From a virus: DNA of 36,834 nt. Positions 1-36,834 of this stretch are shown piece by piece. The position numbers and the translations under genes are program-made. Positions within the stretch are counted from its first letter, which is position 1, and each line of letters opens with the position of its first letter. The stretch lies in the IMG/VR virus record IMGVR_UViG_3300030098_006480, positions 1-36,834 of that record; one strand, given 5' to 3'. The notes under the pieces are model-generated. The model was not told the origin of the DNA and searched no databases. It saw only the letters and a list, made by a program, of their open reading frames with translations.

Positions 1-3000
1 ATTGTATTTAGTGGTGGTATAACCAAAGCATCTCACGATGATAAAAATGTTAGCCTTCAAATTGAGGATAAGTCTTATTTGCATCTTAAAAACACACAGC
101 TACCATCTAAAGGCTTTAATGATACAGATATAGATTTATTTGATAAATACCTAAATAAGCCTGTTCCAATGGTCTATGGGAGAGTAGATAGAGCTCCAAC
201 TATAGTAGGTGCAAAAGATTTGATAGAAGATGGTGAGAACTATAGAGGGGTTGTGTTTAAAGCAGATTGGTATAATTTACGAGAAAATATCAAAGCAGAA
301 TTTAATTCTTATGGGTCTAGAGTTGGAGATGGTATGGGTGGTAAATATATATTTTCTGCACATTTATATAAGTTTGACAATGACCATATCCCTATTACCC
401 ATAGATATGAAAAAAAAGAGGCTAACACTCCTAATAATTTTAGTGATGATGGATATATTAGGCAATATGCTCACAATGATACAAAAAATGAAATACATTT
501 ATTACGGAAAGGTATGAGGCTTCTTGAAAGCCCTAAGAATTATAACAGCTTGATTGATTTAGAAATAAATAGAGCTTCTTGGTCAGACACTACTACTCAA
601 TCTCATGATAAAATAGAATATCCACATTTAATAACTGAAATCGCTAGGCAATTCTCAAAAAAGGTTGATGATTCTATAGCCTTTATACATCATCCTGTAG
701 ATTCAAATACTTTAACTACAATATGGAATGGTGGTAGTTTAGATAATATAACTGAAACAAACGAATCAGGTCAAACAAGTAGAATTTTATATGTTTCCAA
801 TCTCTTTCCTGACCATACAGGAACTGTTCAATCTAGTGAGGAAGTATCGAATTATGATTTAATAACTGCAATTCAATCAGGACTTGCTTTAGAGGCTACA
901 AACTCAAGTAGTGTTGAAGTTAATAATTACATACCATTTACTTTAGACAATAGACTTGAAAATATGGACAGTAGAAGTTCAGGTATTGGTTTTAGTATTT
1001 ATAACGATTTAAATGGAGATGATTCAAGTCATTCAGGGATAAGGTTGAAATTAATCCCTTTAAACTTTTCTGTAGATTGTAGAACTTTTTTCCTTATGGA
1101 GGCAAGTCAGTTTTGCTATGAAACTAGTAATCTTGCATCTAATTTAAATCCAAATAGTCAACCTTCTAGGGATTTGTTTGGGTTGTGGTGCTCAGACGAA
1201 TTGAAATGGAATCGAAGCTCAAATGAAGACGGTGGTCGAGGTTTTTACGATGACCATGCTTTTTGGTCAGGAGCTCACTATATTAATTCAAATACAAAAA
1301 ATACATGGGTTCAGCAAAATGATGGTTTAGCATCAGGGGAGTACCCATCAGAGAAAGATAATAGAGGTCAAGGATTAGGCAGTAGAATATCTTTTGATTC
1401 TTTTAATAAAACTGACTTTTCAGATAAGATTTATTTTGGATACTCAACAGGGCTGACAAGTGTTTCTGAATTGAATAGTGAGCAGAACGATAATTTATTT
1501 TTCGATTCAGGAACTTCACAAAGTTTTGGTCGAACATTTAGACATAAAAAAGAAATAATTTTAAGATATTTATTTATGTTTCATCAGGCTGCTGTTGAGT
1601 TTAAAAGAGATGCTAGTTTTTTTATAGATACATCAGGAAGGTCGGATTATGATTTTGCTAACATATTAAAGATACAACATCCTTCTATTGGTTCTTCAGT
1701 TCAAGACTCTATGAATTATAATTCTTGTGGTCTGATTTATCATATGCTAGATGTGGAGGGAGTTGTTGATGTAAAAGATATAGACTTTGGATCTTATGAG
1801 AAGGCTTATAGTTATTTTGAAAATTATGATATCAGGACTGAATTTAGTCAGAGTGAGTTTATTCCTTCGGACAAACTTATCGAAAATATAACTAAAAATC
1901 TTCCTTTGTTTTTATCTTATAATAATAAGAATCAAATAAAATTTAATATAATACAGAAAAGCTATATTAAAGATGATTATGACAATAGCTTTGAAATTAG
2001 AGTACAAGATTTAATAAGATATAAATTCACAAGAAAAGATGCAGAAAAAATAGCTACAAAAATAAAATATAAATATAATTATGACTATGGAAGCAAGGAA
2101 ACTAATAAGGTATATGAGTATTCACTATCATCTAAGTATGATGATGATTATTTTGACTTTTATGGCATTCCAAATAATCACTCTAAAAGTAGCTTAGAAA
2201 TTGAAGATAGATTTGTAAGAGATGAAAACACAGCTAAAAGTCTTGCAGAGAGTATTTTGCACGACAATGCGAATGACCATTTAGAATTAAGTCTTGACCT
2301 ACCTGTTCGGTATTTTAATTTAGAGGTGGGAGATTTGATTCATTTTAAAGAAATACCCCAAAATATTAAGCCTTTTGGAGTCGATATTAGGGTTGCTACA
2401 AATTCTAACAAAATAGTTCGATATCCTTTATTCATAATAACTTCAACAAAAAAAGGCATTTCTAAAATATCAATACAAGCGACACAACTTCATGCTTCTA
2501 TAGATATAGGAAAGTTTAGAGATGATAATTTAGCTGAGAGTTGGATTTCTGAAGAGTTTTCAAATTTAATAGGGTTAGACACTACTTACTTAAAAAATCA
2601 AATAGATAAAAGCTATATAGTATCTGAAATACCTCAAATACTGGGATGTACAAATCCAAATGCTCTCAATTATAGTGCTGATGCCACAGTAGATGATGGT
2701 AGTTGTGTGCTTCAAGAAGATATAAATTCTACCTGTGCTCATCCTTATGCTCAGAATTATAATGGAGACAACCTTTCTGAATATTTACCTTCACCAAATA
2801 ACGAAGGATGTGTTATAACCTATTTATCAGATTCAATATTGGACTTTTATATAAATTTAAACTTGCAAGATGATTTTATTGCAGGATTAACAACTCAAGG
2901 ATTAGATGATAGCTCTTCTCTGCATATTCCTTTTTCTGAGGCTATAAATCTTTCAAATGTAGAGCAAAACTATTTAGAGAATGATTATAAATATATTGAA

Positions 3001-3670
3001 ATCATGATAAATTCCATGGCTATATTTCAAGGCAATGAAGGAGCTTATCCGAACATGGATACAGCCAATATAAAATGGGGTGTTAAATTTTTAGATAAAG
3101 AGTTGAATATAAAAGAGATATTGATAAATGACAATGAAAATAATTATCCTTTTGATTTTACAGGTTATTTAGATACGGATGAATATATTCCATCAGGTAT
3201 TTTATCAGAGTTCAGAGTATCAAGACTAAACCTTCCTCTGTTATCAGGAAGTGAAGATTATATAGATAATCAGGGAAATGCATATTCTAAATATGCACTA
3301 CTTCACTATCTATGGAAAGAGTATGACATGGTTGAGTTAGAGGAGCTTGTTGATATTGGGAATAGACCTTATGCTTATTTTCAAATTACTGCCTTTATTG
3401 AAAATATTGGATATCAATCCAACCTTCAAAACCACACATTTTCTTTTTATATTAAAGTTCCATATCCTGAAGAAGTTATTGGAGCAACCATACCTCAACT
3501 GCACGAAGGAATAACAGCAAATGGAGATGTTAATTTTGACGGTATTACCAATGTTTTAGATGTGGTTCAAACTGTTAATTATGTATTAGGTAATATAGAT
3601 TTTACAGATGAGCAATTAATCGCTGCAGATATAAATAAGGATGGGATTGTTAATATTTTAGATGTAATAA
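1..3670 (+). repeat. Left-end copy of diverged terminal repeat (tail-tip gene allele A)
   Basis: This segment aligns along its whole length with 33030-36834. The first 77 bases are identical to 33030-33106 and the last 79 (3592-3670) are identical to 36756-36834. Between these flanks the copies differ by many substitutions and several in-frame indels. The positions match a contig that entered an allelic bubble by one branch and left by the other. Confidence 0.85.
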
Positions 3671-10135: not shown

Positions 10136-10321
10136 TTATTGTAAATCTTCAACAGGAACACGAAAAAAACTCGCCAATCTTTGAAGATTCAATTCACTCG
10201 GTTTCCTTCTACCTGCCATTAAATGTGAAAACTGACTTATAGAAATACCTGTAAGCCTAGCAATCTCTTTCTTTTTAAATATAGAATCATTGATTCTTTT
10301 TATAGTATTTTCAGTAAACAT
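10136..10321 (-). CDS. Cro/XRE-type DNA-binding regulator
   Basis: 61 residues from ATG 10321. GGAGG lies 5 bases before that codon, whereas the upstream ATG at 10333 overlaps the SD itself, so I chose the internal start. KKEIARLTGISISQFSHLMAGRRKP is a textbook XRE helix-turn-helix. It heads the leftward recombination operon and faces the iteron/operator region, so autoregulation and control of the operon are likely. Confidence 0.85.
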   Translation of the reverse strand: MFTENTIKRINDSIFKKKEIARLTGISISQFSHLMAGRRKPSELNLQRLASFFRVPVEDLQ

Positions 10322-10484
10322 TTTGTCCTCCATTTGATTGTTAATTTAAATATAATTTTTTTTATGTGCAAATAAATTTATTACTCTCCTCGTGAGAATG
10401 TAAATTAATCTTATATTTAACACAATGTACATATCTTGTACGGATAAAAAAGTTTTATTTTTTGTATAGGTTGATGTATAGGAT
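10322..10484 (-). promoter_or_regulatory. Promoter/operator region of the leftward regulator-ERF operon
   Basis: AT-rich leader. On the minus strand TTGCAC is followed 17 bases later by TAAATT, a weak promoter candidate. Further upstream, GTAC-atatctt-GTAC (about 10427-10441) is an operator-like dyad. Direct proof of either site is lacking. Confidence 0.3.
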
Positions 10485-10547
10485 TAGTTTCCATACCCCG
10501 AAACTCAATTTCCGACACCCGAAACCTAGTTTCCGACACCCGAAAAA
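10485..10547. repeat. Three tandem 21-bp iterons
   Basis: Three end-to-end copies (10485-10505, 10506-10526, 10527-10547). Copies 2 and 3 share the core TTTCCGACACCCGAAA; copy 1 reads TTTCCATACCCCGAAA. Each core has TTTC/GAAA arms, so a protein dimer could bind each one. The exact 21-bp period puts the copies on one face of the helix. They are candidate replication iterons or operators for the neighbouring XRE protein. Confidence 0.75.
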
Positions 10548-10954
10548 AAGAATTGGGGTTGTTTAAATAAATTATTTTGTTTTTTAAAAAAATGTTTTAT
10601 AAGTTTTGAGTTGAAATATTAGTTTATTTCTCCAAGATTGGATGGTGGGGTGAGAGCTTCACCATTCTCCCCTTCTTATAGGTTTGGTTACTACACTTTT
10701 GGCTATAAGAAGTTTGGCTCTACCAAAAGGGGTTCTGACACAGAGCAAAGGTTTAGCGAAAGAGGTATGACCTGTCAGTTAGAGGAAATTCTCAAAAAAA
10801 ACCCTCTCGCATTTGATTAAATTTCTGATTGAATGTATTCGATGATAGCTTGGTCAAGTTTGGGCAAGAAATGAATAGAGCTGCTTACCACTATTGCTAG
10901 GGGTAGGGATAGCTCTATTCAAATCCAACTTAGTAAGAATGGGCAATAGTATTA
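10548..10954. other. Gene-poor structured region, possible origin or non-coding RNA
   Basis: No convincing gene. 10561-10630 is nearly pure A/T. 10641-10810 is richer in G/C and dense in dyads. ATGGTG/CACCAT lies near 10642-10665. CTTCTTATAG (10672-10681) pairs with CTATAAGAAG (10703-10712), and CTTTTGG inside that loop (10696-10702) pairs with CCAAAAG downstream (10723-10729), an H-type pseudoknot. CCCC/GGGG can enclose them. CTGACA/TGTCAG and AGAGG/CCTCT follow. A 60-codon TTG-started frame across it lacks an SD and looks fortuitous. Confidence 0.5.
10873..10920. terminator. Large hairpin downstream of the leftward micro-gene operon
   Basis: GAATAGAGCT and AGCTCTATTC form a perfect 10-bp stem, with an inner TACC/GGTA stem. 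It lies 35 bases past the stop of the membrane micro-gene at 10955. On the minus strand it is followed by ATTTCTTG rather than a long U run, so it may be a terminator, an mRNA end stabiliser, or part of the structured block next to it. Confidence 0.4.
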
Positions 10955-11077
10955 TTAATCTACAAGGCTTTTAAATATATCATAAATTATAGAGATAATA
11001 ATATTAAAAACCTCAACTATTAATCCTATTGAAAGAAAGAATAAAAATATTAAACCTAAAAAAATAATTTCATTCAT
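10955..11077 (-). CDS. 40-residue hydrophobic membrane microprotein
   Basis: MNEIIFLGLIFLFFLSIGLI opens a protein that is almost entirely hydrophobic, with one long or two short membrane helices. Its ATG overlaps the stop of the 29-residue gene upstream (ATGA). No family recognised; an inner-membrane location is likely. Confidence 0.5.
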   Translation of the reverse strand: MNEIIFLGLIFLFFLSIGLIVEVFNIIISIIYDIFKSLVD

Positions 11078-11286: not shown

Positions 11287-11309
11287 TTTATTTCTCCTTT
11301 TTAACTAGA

Positions 11310-11340
11310 GGGTAGGGGAGGAATCGAACCTCCCATAACC
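11310..11340 (-). other. tRNA T-arm-like hairpin without a full tRNA
   Basis: On the minus strand GGAGG-TTCGATT-CCTCC has a 5-bp stem and a loop fitting the TTCRANY consensus exactly, followed by a C-rich stretch like an acceptor 3' strand. The matching 5' acceptor strand and D arm are absent upstream. It could be the tRNA 3' part carried in an attachment site, a tRNA remnant, or a simple hairpin. No integrase gene is visible. Confidence 0.35.
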
Positions 11341-11431
11341 ATTCTTTTATATTATAATTAGTAGTTTATTTTTTCACATTTCATTATTTGATTATTATGA
11401 TTTGTGATATAAAAGAAGCTACCCTAACAAC

Positions 11432-11695
11432 TTATTTAAAAATATCGAAAGCCTCTGAATTCCAAATAGAGCTTTGTCTATCTTTAACACCTTCTAATCT
11501 ATATAGCACCCATTTTTTACCATCTTCATTCCGTTTATCTGTTGAATTGATAATTAGGCCTTTTTCGTGCCTTAATGTGTGTATTATAGCCGAAAGTCGT
11601 GTTATGCTATACTTTCGTATAGCCTCCCAAGATGTGATAGTCTTAAACTCGTTTAAATGGTTTAAAACTATTTCTAATTGAGATTGTTTAGCCAT
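11432..11695 (-). CDS. Winged-helix DNA-binding protein
   Basis: 87 residues. KTITSWEAIRKYSITRLSAIIHTLRHEKG is a helix-turn-helix followed by a wing (LIIN...KKWVLYRLE). This is the small winged-helix type common in phage early regions. The SD is AGGAGG, 5 bases before the ATG. It probably regulates early transcription or helps replication; the target is unknown. Confidence 0.7.
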   Translation of the reverse strand: MAKQSQLEIVLNHLNEFKTITSWEAIRKYSITRLSAIIHTLRHEKGLIINSTDKRNEDGKKWVLYRLEGVKDRQSSIWNSEAFDIFK

Positions 11696-12045: not shown

Positions 12046-12258
12046 TTATTTCTTATATTGTAGGTTCAACCATAACCAAAATATAGAAACTCCATAACAC
12101 ATCATAAATAATATCAATGATATAATTATATTCATAACATCGTGATTATAGAACAAGCTATAATATAAATGTCTGATTAGATTTATAGTGGACATTAGCA
12201 TCATAGACACCACAGAAATCCACATCAATTTTATAATTGTATTATCGTTAAATATCAT
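12046..12258 (-). CDS. Small two-helix membrane protein with structured RNA leader
   Basis: 70 residues. Two hydrophobic segments (MWISVVSMMLMSTINLI and IIISLILFMMCYGVSIFWL) flank a short basic, aromatic loop. The SD is TAGGAG. Its leader contains the first three-way-junction element (12283-12329). No family recognised; an inner-membrane location is likely. Confidence 0.55.
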   Translation of the reverse strand: MIFNDNTIIKLMWISVVSMMLMSTINLIRHLYYSLFYNHDVMNIIISLILFMMCYGVSIFWLWLNLQYKK

Positions 12259-12282
12259 TTTTTTTCTCCTAGTTTATATAGT

Positions 12283-12329
12283 TCCTCTGTTGGATACGAC
12301 TCCAATTAAATAATCATATTATCAGAGGA
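12283..12329 (-). ncRNA. Three-way-junction leader RNA, copy 1
   Basis: Read on the minus strand. P1 is TCCTCTG/CAGAGGA, P2 is ATAAT-ATG-ATTAT, and P3 is TTGGA-GTCGTA-TCCAA, which abuts the P1 3' strand. It sits 25 bases before the ATG of the 12046-12258 gene. Copy 2 at 12517-12562 has the same architecture and the same P3 loop but different stem sequences. Confidence 0.65.
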
Positions 12330-12336
12330 TTTATTA

Positions 12337-12492
12337 TTATTTAGCTTCAATAAGTGCTACTTTTATAGCATCTTTTTTATTCATATTTGTATAAAAATAA
12401 CCATTTTTAATAGGATATTTTTTATTGTTTATATATACTTTATAGCCCTGAGTATATCCAAAATATGAAACTTTTTTTGTTTTTATTTTCAT
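12337..12492 (-). CDS. 51-residue basic small protein with structured RNA leader
   Basis: It starts MKIKTKKVSYFGYTQGYKVY, is rich in Lys and Tyr, and ends with a helix (MNKKDAIKVALIEAK). It looks like a small alpha/beta domain. The SD is TAGGAG within a shared TATATAAACACTAGGAGAAAA leader block. The second three-way-junction element lies just upstream. Function unknown. Confidence 0.6.
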   Translation of the reverse strand: MKIKTKKVSYFGYTQGYKVYINNKKYPIKNGYFYTNMNKKDAIKVALIEAK

Positions 12493-12516
12493 TTTTTCTC
12501 CTAGTGTTTATATAGT

Positions 12517-12562
12517 TCCTCCATCAGATACGACTCTGATAAATTGACAAATCAATGGAGGA
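12517..12562 (-). ncRNA. Three-way-junction leader RNA, copy 2
   Basis: Read on the minus strand. P1 is TCCTCC/GGAGGA, P2 is ATTGA-TTTG-TCAAT, and P3 is ATCAGA-GTCGTA-TCTGAT. Compared with copy 1, all three helices changed sequence while keeping pairing; the GTCGTA loop, the flanking GA/TC and the 3' block GGAACTATATAAAC are unchanged. The P1 3' strand GGAGGA resembles an SD, so P1 may hide it. It lies 24 bases before the ATG at 12492. Confidence 0.65.
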
Positions 12563-12569
12563 TTTATTA

Positions 12570-12746
12570 TTATGAAATAGCCCTAATTTCTGAAACTAAT
12601 CGCATTACCTTAAATTCAACTTTCCAACTTAAAGACAAGTCTAAATGATTTACAATCCAATGATAACAGGATTTATAATTATTAAAGTCTTTAAAGTATT
12701 TTTCATCGTTGGTTTCATTATATATTTTATACATTTGTCTATTCAT
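12570..12746 (-). CDS. 58-residue small protein
   Basis: It starts MNRQMYKIYNETNDEKYFKD and includes YKSCYHWIVNHLDLSLSWKV, a mostly helical small protein. The leader shares the TATATAAACACTAGGAG block with the two downstream genes but lacks the three-way junction. It has an AAGG...CCTT hairpin there instead. No family recognised. Confidence 0.55.
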   Translation of the reverse strand: MNRQMYKIYNETNDEKYFKDFNNYKSCYHWIVNHLDLSLSWKVEFKVMRLVSEIRAIS

Positions 12747-12816
12747 TTTATTTTCTCCTAGTGTTTATATAAATTTTTTGTGTTTTTTTAAGGAAAACAC
12801 CGAAAAACCTTTAAAA

Positions 12817-13119
12817 TTAATAAGAATTTCTTATTATTTGCTTTAGTTCGTTAGTATCTTTTTTTATTGTGTCTGTTGTAGGTCTTGCTTGTGTCTGTTG
12901 TTTAGATGTTGAAACGGAATATTTATTACCATTTTCAAGCCATTGATTTGACTTAAAATCATAAACATACATAGGAAAGTGCTCCCCGTATGAATAAACA
13001 ACATATAAAACACAATTTGAATTTTTATCTGTGTAAGACCTTGCAAAAACATTATTTGCATTAAATTCAACTTTTTGTGATACTAATTCAGAACATTTGT
13101 AATTACTTATTTTTACCAT
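12817..13119 (-). CDS. Conserved phage early protein (GNKYSVSTSKQ type)
   Basis: 100 residues. YVVYSYGEHFPMYVYD, then NQWLENGNKYSVSTSKQQTQARP, is a pattern I recall from many small hypothetical proteins of phages (a short beta domain in which 'TSKH..Q..P' is conserved). The SD is AAGGAG. It is the first gene of the leftward early transcript. Role unknown. Confidence 0.6.
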   Translation of the reverse strand: MVKISNYKCSELVSQKVEFNANNVFARSYTDKNSNCVLYVVYSYGEHFPMYVYDFKSNQWLENGNKYSVSTSKQQTQARPTTDTIKKDTNELKQIIRNSY

Positions 13120-13349
13120 TTTCTTACTCCTTTATTTAATTAAATCTTTGATTGTGAGAGGGTGGCGAGTAAACCACCCTCCCCAACCTTAAACAAGGAG
13201 GAGAAAAAAACATTTTCGAATTAAACCCGATGTTCAATCGGGAGAGTGTTCCGAACTATTCAATTAACTCCACACCCTAAACAATATGTCAAAAAACATC
13301 AATGCAATAAAGAACCAATTCAATTAACTATGTTAATCTAAGTAATTAA
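13120..13349 (-). promoter_or_regulatory. Leader region of the leftward early operon with two hairpins
   Basis: GAGGGTGG-cgagtaaa-CCACCCTC (13158-13181) is a perfect 8-bp stem. CCCGAT-gttca-ATCGGG (13226-13242) is a 6-bp stem. Neither is followed by a clear U run on either strand. They lie in the presumed 5' leader of the early transcript and may be operators or mRNA structures. Confidence 0.4.
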
Positions 13350-32642: not shown

Positions 32643-35600
32643 ATGATAGAATTACCAACAAGTTTACAAAGCCATATACAATCAAATAACACCAAATTAT
32701 TTCCTTTAGTTATTATAAAATTAAAGGATAAATATTTAGGATTATCAACAAAGAGATATGATGTCAAGTTGGGAGATGGTAGTTATTTCAATTTCAAACC
32801 TTTAATCGCCAAAGATATTACTATATCTCAAAGTATTGATTTAAAAGCATCTAAGTTTAAAGTATCAACAATTAACCTTTCTATATCTAATTTTATATTT
32901 GAACAGACACGATTCTCTGAATATTTCGAGGATTATTCTATGCTTCAAAGTGATGTTGAGATTTTCTTTGGTGTTGATGGTCAGGTTGGAGATTTTACAG
33001 AGGATTATAAAGAAATAGAAAATGCAACGATTGTATTTAGTGGTGGTATAACCAAAGCATCTCACGATGATAAAAATGTTAGCCTTCAAATTGAGGATAA
33101 GTCTTACTTAAACCTTAAAAACACACAGCTACCCTCTAAAGGATTTGATGATACAGATGCAGAGCTGTTTGATAAATACTTAAACAAGCCTATTCCTATG
33201 GTATATGGAGATGTTGATAAAGCTCCTACAGTTGTAGGTGTAAAAGATTTAATTGAAAATGGTGAGAATTATAGAGGGGTTGTATTTAAAGCCGATTCTT
33301 ATAATTTGAAATCAGTAGATAACGAAGAGAGTTTTGAATCTTATGGTTCGAGAATAGATGATGAAACTAAAAAGGGTGGAAAGTATATTTTTTCTTCTTA
33401 TTTATACAAGCACGATGGAGGTCATATTCCTATTACTCACAGATATGAGAGGAAAGGTACTGACGACCCTACAGATTTTAGCGAGGATGGATATGTAAGG
33501 CAGTATATTCACAATGAATCGAAAAATGAAATACATTTATTAAAAAAAGGGATGAGGCTTCTTGAAGCACCTAAATCTCATGCGAATTTGCTAGATAGTC
33601 AAATAACTATAGGTTCTTGGAATGGAGCTAATCTCAATGATGACCCTACTGTAAAAACTGAAGCACATAAAAAAATTACATATCCTCATTTAATAACAGA
33701 AATACCTAGAGAATTTTCTAAAAAAACAGACGATAGTATTGCTTTCATACATATCCCCCATGGGAATGAGCTTTCAGGAGAAGATGCTGCAACAGGAGCA
33801 AGTAATACTGCAAACCCAACAGGTTTTAGGACTTACAATTATAACACAGGTGCATTTGGCGATAACTTTTACAAACAAACCTTTAAGATATTATATGAGT
33901 CAAATATTTTTGTTAGCTATGCTAGTGGCTCACAGTCTGAAAATGGAAGTGTAGTTAGTGAAGACTCAATAGCTAATTATGACGAAGAGATAGCAACTGA
34001 AGCAGGTCTTTGCTTAACAGCTGAAAGTTCTTTTACTAACGAGGTTAATTCTCACGAAAATTTTACCTTAGATGACAGATTGGAAGTTCCAAACAGAAGT
34101 TCAGGGATTGCGATGAGCATATGGAATCATAAGGTTGGAAATGACTCTACTCATGCAGGGATACGATTAAAGTTAATACCATTGGATTTTTCTTTAGATT
34201 GTAGGACTTTTGTTTTTATGGAGGCATATCAACTTTGCTATGCTAAAAAAAGCACAGCAGAGGTGATTCCTTCAAGAGATTTTTTTGGAGTTTGGTGTTC
34301 TGATGAATTGCAATGGTGCACAGGTTCAGATAATAATGATGGTCGTAAGTTTGAAGATGAGCATGGTGTGTGGCAAGGTGCTCACTACATAGAAGATTCT
34401 AAATGGAAAAAGCAAAACGATGGTCAGGCTTCAGGTCAATACCCTTCGACTATAACAGATATACATCAAGGATTAGGAAGTAGGATTCCTTTTGATGCTT
34501 TTAACAAGACTGATTTTTCAGACAAGATTTACTTTGGATATTCAACAGGATTAACAAGTGTTGATGGAACTCACGATGATATATACTTTGATAATTCTGC
34601 AGGTTCTCGTGGGTCTGTATCAGGAACGAGTAATTATCCGTTGTATAACGATATAAATGGAGGTCATAGAAAAGAATTAATACTTAAAAGTTTGTTTATA
34701 TTTCAACAAGCTGCAGTTGAATTTAAGAGAGATGCTGAATATTTTATAAGTACAAAAGGTCGTTCAGATGTAAATGGTTCAACAAAACTTAAAATTGAAC
34801 ATCCCTCTTTGGATGCTGATTATGAAGAGGCTGATAGTTTTAATCCTTGTGCACAGATATATCATGCTTTAGATGTAGAAGGAATCGTTAGCACTTCAGA
34901 GATAGATTATAATTCTTATAAAGAATCATATGATAGGTTGTCAGGAATATTAACTGCTTTCAGTCAGAGTGAATTCACCTCTTCAGATAGTTTTATAGAA
35001 GAGATAACTAAAAATATTCCTTTATTTTTATCTTATAATAATAAAAATCAAATCAAATTTAATGCTTTAAAGAAATTCTACACTACATCTGATTATAATG
35101 ATAGTTTTGAAGTTAAAGTTCAAGATTTAATATCTTACAAGTTTACACGAAAAGATGCAGAAAATATTACAACTAAAGTAGTGTTTAAGTATAAGTATGA
35201 CTACGGAAAAAATGAAACAAGAAAAACTAATGAAATTACTCTACCTGTTGAATATGATGATGATTATTTTAATTTCTATGGATTGCCAAACGACCACTCT
35301 AAAAGCACTTTAGAGATTGAGGATAAGTTTATTAGAGAGCACAATTCTGCAAGTAATGCTGCAAAAAGGATTTTATATAACAATGCAAACGACCATTTAG
35401 AATTAAGTCTTGACCTCCCTGTTAGATATTTTAATTTAGAGGTGGGAGATTTGATTAGCTTCAAAGAGCTTCCTCAAGGGATTAAGCCTTTTGGAGTTGA
35501 TATTAGAGTTGTTTCAAACCCAAACAAGATTATTCGCTATCCATTGTTTATAGTTACATCAACAAAAAAAGGAATATCTAAAATATCCTTACAAGCAACA

Positions 35601-36834
35601 CAGCTTCATGGGTTAATGAGTATGTCTAACTTCAAGCTAAATCCTAATTATTATGGATTAAATGGATTTATATCTCAAGATTTTGCAGATGATATAGGAG
35701 TTGATGTAGATTATTTGGAATCTCAAATGCAAAAAAGTTATGATATTTTTGCTCCATATGTTCCTATATCAGGATGTACAAATCCTAATGCTATTAATTA
35801 CAATCCTAATGCAGATACAGATGATGGTAGTTGTGTTTTTTCTGAAGATATAACTTTACAATGTGCTCACCCTTATGCAGAGAATTACAATGGAAGCAAT
35901 CTTTCTGATTATATTCCTTCTCCAAACAATGAGGCTTGTAATATAAATTACCCATCATATACAAATTTAGATTTTTTCTTTAAAGCAAAGCTTCAGGAGC
36001 TTGGTGGTGCTATTTATACAAACCCTGATTTCGGTGAGAGTGGGGTTCTTTATTTGCATAATACTCAAGAGCTTGAAGATAAATCATCTATGCACCTTCC
36101 TTTTGGTCAGGCTGTAGATTTTTCTCCCTACGAGATGAATTGGGAATCTGATGTTTGGGATACTATATCTTTAATACTTGCAGTTGAAAACACAAATCCT
36201 CAATCAAATACCTATAATATAGATTTAGATACAGCAGTTATTAAATGGGGTATTAAATTTTTAGACAAAGAATTGAACATAAAAAAAAGGCTTTTAAAAG
36301 ACAATGAAAATAATTACCCTTTTGGTTTTACAGGTGATTTGGATGTTGATGATTATATCCCCTCTAATAGTTGCTCTCAATCAAATCAATTAAGCATCCC
36401 TCTTTTTGCAGGTAGCTATGATTATGAAAATCCTAACGGAGGGTACTATTTTAAATATGCTTTACTTCACTACCTATGGAAAGAATATGATATGGTTGAT
36501 TTAGAAGAACTTGTTGATATTGAAAATAGACCTTATGCTCACTTTCAAATAACAGCTCTTGTTGAAAGTATAGGCAATGATGGTAATTTACAAGACCACA
36601 CATTTTCTTTTTATATTAAAGTTCCATATCCTGAAGAGGTTATTGGAGCAACCATACCTCAACTGCACGAAGATGTGGTAGCAAATGCAGATGTTAATTT
36701 TGATGGAATCACTAATGTGTTAGATGTGGTTCAAACTGTTAATTATGTATTAGGCAATATAGATTTTACAGATGAGCAATTAATCGCTGCAGATATAAAT
36801 AAGGATGGGATTGTTAATATTTTAGATGTAATAA
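32643..36834 (+). CDS. Tail-tip / baseplate-hub protein, allele B (3' end outside window)
   Basis: Starts at ATG 32643 right after the tape measure stop (SD AGGAT). The first 129 codons (MIELPTSLQSHIQSNNTKLF...; YDVKLGDGSYFNFKPLIA) are the N-terminal part missing from the left-end copy. After that it aligns along its length to 1-3670 in frame, with the same hub-like centre, Cys motif (GCTNPNAINY...DDGSC) and dockerin-like C-terminus. The frame is open to the last base. If joined to 3671 it would be 1405 residues, 45 longer than allele A. N-terminal and central parts are conserved; surface-like segments vary most. Confidence 0.75.
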   Translation, partial: MIELPTSLQSHIQSNNTKLFPLVIIKLKDKYLGLSTKRYDVKLGDGSYFNFKPLIAKDITISQSIDLKASKFKVSTINLSISNFIFEQTRFSEYFEDYSMLQSDVEIFFGVDGQVGDFTEDYKEIENATIVFSGGITKASHDDKNVSLQIEDKSYLNLKNTQLPSKGFDDTDAELFDKYLNKPIPMVYGDVDKAPTVVGVKDLIENGENYRGVVFKADSYNLKSVDNEESFESYGSRIDDETKKGGKYIFSSYLYKHDGGHIPITHRYERKGTDDPTDFSEDGYVRQYIHNESKNEIHLLKKGMRLLEAPKSHANLLDSQITIGSWNGANLNDDPTVKTEAHKKITYPHLITEIPREFSKKTDDSIAFIHIPHGNELSGEDAATGASNTANPTGFRTYNYNTGAFGDNFYKQTFKILYESNIFVSYASGSQSENGSVVSEDSIANYDEEIATEAGLCLTAESSFTNEVNSHENFTLDDRLEVPNRSSGIAMSIWNHKVGNDSTHAGIRLKLIPLDFSLDCRTFVFMEAYQLCYAKKSTAEVIPSRDFFGVWCSDELQWCTGSDNNDGRKFEDEHGVWQGAHYIEDSKWKKQNDGQASGQYPSTITDIHQGLGSRIPFDAFNKTDFSDKIYFGYSTGLTSVDGTHDDIYFDNSAGSRGSVSGTSNYPLYNDINGGHRKELILKSLFIFQQAAVEFKRDAEYFISTKGRSDVNGSTKLKIEHPSLDADYEEADSFNPCAQIYHALDVEGIVSTSEIDYNSYKESYDRLSGILTAFSQSEFTSSDSFIEEITKNIPLFLSYNNKNQIKFNALKKFYTTSDYNDSFEVKVQDLISYKFTRKDAENITTKVVFKYKYDYGKNETRKTNEITLPVEYDDDYFNFYGLPNDHSKSTLEIEDKFIREHNSASNAAKRILYNNANDHLELSLDLPVRYFNLEVGDLISFKELPQGIKPFGVDIRVVSNPNKIIRYPLFIVTSTKKGISKISLQATQLHGLMSMSNFKLNPNYYGLNGFISQDFADDIGVDVDYLESQMQKSYDIFAPYVPISGCTNPNAINYNPNADTDDGSCVFSEDITLQCAHPYAENYNGSNLSDYIPSPNNEACNINYPSYTNLDFFFKAKLQELGGAIYTNPDFGESGVLYLHNTQELEDKSSMHLPFGQAVDFSPYEMNWESDVWDTISLILAVENTNPQSNTYNIDLDTAVIKWGIKFLDKELNIKKRLLKDNENNYPFGFTGDLDVDDYIPSNSCSQSNQLSIPLFAGSYDYENPNGGYYFKYALLHYLWKEYDMVDLEELVDIENRPYAHFQITALVESIGNDGNLQDHTFSFYIKVPYPEEVIGATIPQLHEDVVANADVNFDGITNVLDVVQTVNYVLGNIDFTDEQLIAADINKDGIVNILDVI
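33030..36834 (+). repeat. Right-end copy of diverged terminal repeat (tail-tip gene allele B)
   Basis: Aligns with 1-3670: identical at 33030-33106 and 36756-36834, diverged in between, in the same frame throughout. The window ends exactly where the 3' identical flank ends in the copy at 3670, as expected if the true continuation is 3671 onward. Confidence 0.85.

Follow-up and report, generated by a model that had tools for sequence, protein, structure and literature searches.

Two leaders of adjacent micro-genes in a phage genome are copies of one covarying folded RNA, and the earlier note's suggestion that selection acts on their RNA structure is well supported by comparison of the two sequences, because six base pairs have changed in a compensatory manner and none is broken. 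We propose that the leaders represent an orphan intercistronic cis-acting RNA module in the early mRNA, which would be specifically recognized and would tune the translation or decay of the downstream micro-gene; we give this reading a probability of roughly 0.45. "Early" is used here, for the operon and for the micro-genes, as a label taken from position and gene size only.

Arrangement of the leaders in the operon

The sequence analyzed, referred to below as the window, is the whole 36,834-base virus record IMGVR_UViG_3300030098_006480 (positions 1–36,834). It belongs to a tailed phage, in which the large terminase, small terminase, major head protein and tape measure were recognized. Both leaders are located in an operon that runs leftward on the minus strand and consists of very small genes; all the strings named by the earlier note are present on this strand. 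The order on this strand is 100-aa gene, 58-aa gene, leader A, 51-aa gene, leader B, 70-aa gene and then more small genes, and the span 12259–12569 consists of leader B, the 51-aa gene (12337–12492) and leader A. The features are as follows.

12817–13119, minus strand: 100-aa gene, first in the operon in the order read
12570–12746, minus strand: 58-aa gene, upstream of leader A; a weak homologue adjoins the homologue of the 51-aa gene in the related locus G012 (E 4e-4)
12493–12569, minus strand: leader A, intercistronic between the 58-aa and 51-aa genes; 98.9 bits with covariance model R1
12337–12492, minus strand: 51-aa gene, downstream of leader A; homologues in viral contigs at 52–70% identity
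12259–12336, minus strand: leader B, intercistronic between the 51-aa and 70-aa genes; 102.1 bits with covariance model R1
12046–12258, minus strand: 70-aa gene, downstream of leader B; hydrophobic protein, no relative found
12517–12562, minus strand: junction of leader A; P1 12562–12556/12523–12517, P2 12555–12552/12547–12544, P3 12539–12535/12528–12524, loop GUCGUA 12534–12529
12283–12329, minus strand: junction of leader B; P1 12329–12323/12289–12283, P2 12322–12319/12313–12310, P3 12305–12301/12294–12290, loop GUCGUA 12300–12295
12506–12519, minus strand: fixed block GGAACTATATAAAC of leader A, whose GGA is the end of P1, followed by the SD CTAGGAG
12272–12285, minus strand: fixed block GGAACTATATAAAC of leader B, followed by the SD TAGGAG
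12564–12572, minus strand: three in-frame stops TAATAATAA at the end of the 58-aa gene, one base ahead of P1 (direct reading)
12331–12339, minus strand: three in-frame stops TAATAATAA at the end of the 51-aa gene, one base ahead of P1 (direct reading)
12751–12777, minus strand: a further, third copy limited to the 3′ block (TATATAAACACTAGGAGAAAA; block UAUAUAAACACUAGGAGAAAA), before the 58-aa gene and without the junction; 21.3 bits with R1

Each leader contains GTCGTATC and GGAACTATATAAAC once, and neither sequence is present elsewhere in the window; ACUAUAUAAAC is fixed in both leaders after P1 and before the SD, in keeping with the earlier note's description of a fixed block after P1 and a fixed SD context. 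The tandem in-frame stops TAATAATAA, which that note missed, also belong to the fixed block in both copies. The stop, the junction and the SD follow in the same order and at the same distances in both copies, and at both sites the module is placed exactly between the triple stop and the next SD. The contig has no other good repeat like the two leaders, which match at 79.5% over 83 nt (E 5e-12). The RBS block itself is repeated three times in this virus, with the folded junction attached at two of the three places.

Compensatory change and predicted folding

Leaders A and B, aligned by plain MAFFT, are diverged copies of one 74-column element. They have a common architecture consisting of P1 (7 bp), P2 (4 bp) and P3 (5 bp), with the hexaloop GUCGUA on P3 identical in the two copies, as had been claimed. 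P1 is UCCUCUG/CAGAGGA in copy B and UCCUCCA/UGGAGGA in copy A, while P3 is UUGGA/UCCAA in copy B and UCAGA/UCUGA in copy A. The earlier observation that the helices differ and yet keep pairing holds for all 16 pairs, which are intact in both copies (32 of 32 cells pair); six of the 16 are changed on both sides, two per helix, and none is broken. The part that does not hold fully is P2, which is insecure in copy B. These six fully compensated pairs account for 12 of the 14 differences within the junction. When the 3′ partners are slid by one to three columns, pairing falls from 100% to 31–48%.

A neutral simulation, in which an equal number of substitutions was placed randomly on one copy, broke a mean of 5.2 pairs. 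The probability of no broken pair was 6–7e-4 (0.06–0.07% of trials), and the combination of no broken pair with at least six double changes occurred in 0 of 200,000; the structure was picked after the sequences were seen, which makes these P values optimistic, and the margin is still large. Over the element, differing columns are more frequent among paired positions (12 of 32) than among unpaired ones (2 of 28; Fisher p 0.006). Within the junction alone, 2 of 14 unpaired columns differ and the contrast between paired and unpaired columns is not significant (p 0.17).

The predicted pair probabilities in leader A are 0.9–0.98 for P1, 0.55–0.77 for P2 and 0.64–0.84 for P3. In leader B, P1 is near 1 and neither P2 nor P3 reaches 0.1, since another inner hairpin is in competition with them: the minimum-energy fold of copy B has the inner hairpin AUAUGAUU/AGUCGUAU instead of P2 and P3 (−14.9 kcal/mol), as against −12.5 kcal/mol for the three-way junction as drawn and −13.2 kcal/mol for P1 and P3 without P2. 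The covariation indicates that P1 and P3 are secure, with P2 likely but weaker. The leaders are only moderately more stable than shuffled sequences (z −1.2 to −2.6), and it is therefore covariation rather than energy that carries the case. The predicted ensemble leaves the SD largely unpaired (0.72–0.82 in A and 0.5–0.95 in B); the default state would therefore not be one of SD sequestration.

Known RNA classes and related phages

Neither leader matched Rfam at gathering, in agreement with the earlier note, which could place them in no known class. The best weak match was to freshwater-2 RNA (RF02980), for copy B only (22.2 bits, E 0.94, gathering 49.9). We rejected this candidate: its score is below the gathering threshold of 49.9 bits and is driven by the ribosome-binding site, and an unrelated leader in the window (13117–13198) scores 19 bits against freshwater-2 from the RBS alone. 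The likeness consists of a structured leader directly before a AGGAGAAAA...AUG start region, together with a weak UAUG...CGUA resemblance in copy B only, whereas freshwater-2 is composed of three successive hairpins and copy A is absent from the matches. Downstream-peptide and glnA riboswitches are short RNAs that occur ahead of very small ORFs in phages or cyanobacteria, and it is in this niche alone that they are similar to the leaders. No covariance-model match to the Downstream-peptide/glnA glutamine riboswitch was obtained at gathering or up to E 10, which fits the earlier remark that its signature is not visible.

The Rfam self-cleaving ribozymes (hammerhead, twister, pistol and others) likewise gave no covariance-model match. 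A hammerhead-like CUGAUG in copy A was rejected, as it is missing in copy B and has no Rfam ribozyme match. A leader peptide was also rejected (copy B has only AUG AUU AUU UAA without an SD, and copy A has none), as was an intrinsic terminator or attenuator: there is no G+C-rich stem plus U tract, neither leader appeared in the terminator scan, and P1 is followed by ACUAUAUAAAC. Terminator and sigma-70 promoter readings in the region showed no excess over shuffles. The two copies share one feature with phage translational operators, namely a conserved loop on a stem of variable sequence, upstream of the SD of the gene that would be controlled. The portions of the literature on phage structured RNAs available to us contained nothing pointing to the element. 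We regard the element as a new, orphan motif within a familiar type, the structured phage mRNA leader, and as a credible candidate rather than an established class, because there are only two copies on one contig.

A search for further copies was made by several routes. Pattern scans of viral_contigs for loop, P1 and flank gave matches that failed the P1/P3 pairing scan, and a viral_contigs scan for the 3′ block with SD gave zero matches. Among the matches from one of the loop, P1 and flank scans, from the 5′ flank with P1 (viral_contigs) and from the genome_contigs patterns, the best covariance-model E was 0.57 and none was convincing. BLASTN searches with the single leaders (phages) and with the two together (plasmids) returned only short A/T-rich or SD-only matches. 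Relatives were collected as 42 terminase loci and 43 loci found by the 100-aa gene; terL had no relative in genome_contigs. Covariance model R1 found no third copy in approximately 1.5 Mb of loci and none in 44 whole related records, for which a positive control outside the window does not exist; within the window it gave two true matches, the remainder being mirror-strand and SD-only noise. Patterns, the pairing scan, BLASTN and the covariance model thus revealed no further homologue, the outcome that the earlier note had named as counting against its proposal; within the sequences searched, the element is confined to a single virus.

Homologues of the 51-aa gene at 52–70% identity are present in five loci. 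In G012/L030, the 58-aa gene (weakly, E 4e-4) and the 51-aa gene both have homologues, which are adjacent and in the same order, with a gap of approximately 15 nt and no junction, and in G022 the upstream sequence is likewise unrelated. Because the same gene pair in a relative has a 15-nt gap and no element, the element is lineage-specific and was gained (or lost) between conserved genes, and the module is therefore dispensable in that relative.

We note that related phages repeat phage-specific RBS blocks before several early micro-genes, as identified by self-comparison (L030 15901–16143, L079 11212–11661 and L279 3723–4642); examples are ATAAAACAAAGGGGAAACAATG and AUAAAACAAAGGGGAAACAAUG in L030, and AUUAUAAAAAGGAGAAAAA in L079. 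Repetition ahead of early micro-genes is common to these phages and the window virus; however, the blocks in the relatives are short and unstructured, and a folded junction is attached in the window virus only. The repeated blocks suggest a lineage-specific homogenization of translation start regions.

Possible roles of the leaders, and other features of the contig

The data favor a sense-strand RNA element, because complementarity has been kept amid sequence change and because the position is fixed to stop and SD. The leaders would then be paralogous copies of a cis-acting intercistronic module in an early polycistronic phage mRNA. The upstream ribosome would terminate beside P1, and the SD would lie in an open A/U-rich stretch past the junction, the structure thus insulating the two cistrons. 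A phage- or host-encoded protein or nuclease may recognize the GUCGUA loop and the single-stranded segments and would thereby, much as at the T4 gene 43 operator, determine how the downstream micro-gene is translated or how its mRNA decays. The concentration of differences in paired columns is the pattern expected if the helices serve only as a scaffold and the single strands are read. Against specific recognition, the conservation of the loop could partly reflect a recent common origin, since the contrast within the junction alone is not significant (p 0.17). Further limits on recognition are set by the two copies being on one contig with no homologue among the searched sequences, by the relative that has the gene pair but not the module, and by the competing fold of copy B.

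The T4/RB69 gp43 operator is a hairpin with a conserved loop approximately 40 nt upstream of the start codon, in which the recognized sequence reaches the RBS (PMC3014915). The leaders resemble it in being phage mRNA structures with a conserved loop upstream of a start codon. The operator is, however, a single hairpin for a polymerase gene and has a known binder, whereas the leaders form a junction, occur twice, serve micro-genes and have a putative binder. A bolder version of our proposal, which we consider unlikely, is that the leaders define a new class of phage regulatory RNA, in which a phage protein dedicated to the invariant GUCGUA loop (or a small ligand) would read it and so coordinate several early micro-genes, with the module copied between cistrons.

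The control of phage early micro-genes, most of which lack annotation, has hardly been studied. Being limited to one uncultured contig, the element does not yet answer a long-standing question. Paralogous covarying leaders in one genome indicate that post-transcriptional elements can arise between conserved early genes within a lineage, and the leaders offer a compact, testable candidate target for a phage RNA-binding regulator.

The main rival to specific recognition is a passive insulating or stabilizing hairpin, a reading that we regard as possible, if somewhat on the unlikely side. Here any stable hairpin would act as a spacer that blocks 3′–5′ decay or read-through by ribosomes, with no specific partner, and the identical loop and flanks would result from recent duplication. 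Unrelated weak hairpins are also found in other intercistronic gaps of the operon, the repeated RBS blocks of the relatives imply that copying of blocks between cistrons is common in the family, and the non-significant contrast within the junction is in its favor; but a three-part layout is not needed for mere stability, and single-stranded columns are depleted in differences overall.

The remaining readings are less likely. That the leaders are processing sites, at which an endonuclease such as RNase III or T4 RegB, both of which process phage early mRNA, would cut in or beside the junction and separate the cistrons, is improbable. The leaders are intercistronic, and both SDs, as well as copy A in its P1, contain GGAG, which RegB cuts when intergenic (PMC3014915); T4 RegB sites are similarly GGAG sequences in translation initiation regions between early cistrons. 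These sites, however, need an unpaired GGAG with an A-rich stretch after it and involve no structural junction, and folding of the RNA shields it from RegB (PMC3014915). There is no GGAG in P1 of copy B, the leaders do not match the RegB consensus GGAGRAYARAA over its full length, and the helices are short for RNase III.

Ligand sensing is unsupported, and a riboswitch, with a metabolite bound at the junction governing the downstream SD, is very improbable. The leaders do have a junction with conserved single-stranded segments ahead of the SD, a 5′ strand of P1 (UCCUC) complementary to SD-like sequence, and two competing folds in copy B. On the other hand, UCCUC pairs with the true SD at about four positions only, the default state is predicted to have the SD open, no Rfam class fits, the downstream micro-proteins have no metabolic link, and riboswitches are normally widespread, which the leaders are not. 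Equally improbable is a DNA-level element, an integron attC-like site that flanks a gene cassette, serves recombination or binding, and has its complementarity kept by single-strand DNA folding. Two copies do flank one micro-gene, the block is present or absent between relatives and folding is possible on both strands. However, the stem ends, which are GTTCCTC/GAGGA by direct reading, lack the attC R-box pair GTTRRRY...RYYYAAC, DNA recombination would not need the constant position and orientation relative to stop and SD, and the contig has no second cassette array.

Other features were observed elsewhere in the contig. At 11302–11471 (minus strand), just upstream of a 40-aa gene, there is a tRNA-like non-coding element that has an acceptor-like helix (GGGUAG/CUACCC), a hairpin of 11 bp (UUCUUUUAUAU/AUAUAAAAGAA) and a hairpin resembling a T arm (GGGAGG-UUCGAUU-CCUCCC), and that folds at −30.4 kcal/mol; ARAGORN found no tRNA in it, and Rfam only a T-arm, a tmRNA fragment at 12.8 bits. 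A non-coding stretch of approximately 300 nt at 10660–10960 (minus strand) contains several strong hairpins, for example GAAUAGAGCU...AGCUCUAUUC and CUUCUUAUAG...CUAUAAGAAG, and is possibly a phage small RNA; it has no Rfam match. Tandem near-repeats GGGTGTCGGAAACTAGGTTTC / GGGTGTCGGAAATTGAGTTTC / GGGGTATGGAAACTAATCC at 10480–10545 (minus strand) lie upstream of a 65-aa gene (10136–10333) that appears HTH/Cro-like by eye, making the repeats operator candidates. Finally, positions 1–3670 and 33030–36834 (plus strand) are two diverged paralogous stretches with 69–82% identity, the second reaching the contig end; the first is an ORF of 1205 aa that carries a dockerin type I domain at its C-terminus, an apparently unusual feature in a phage.
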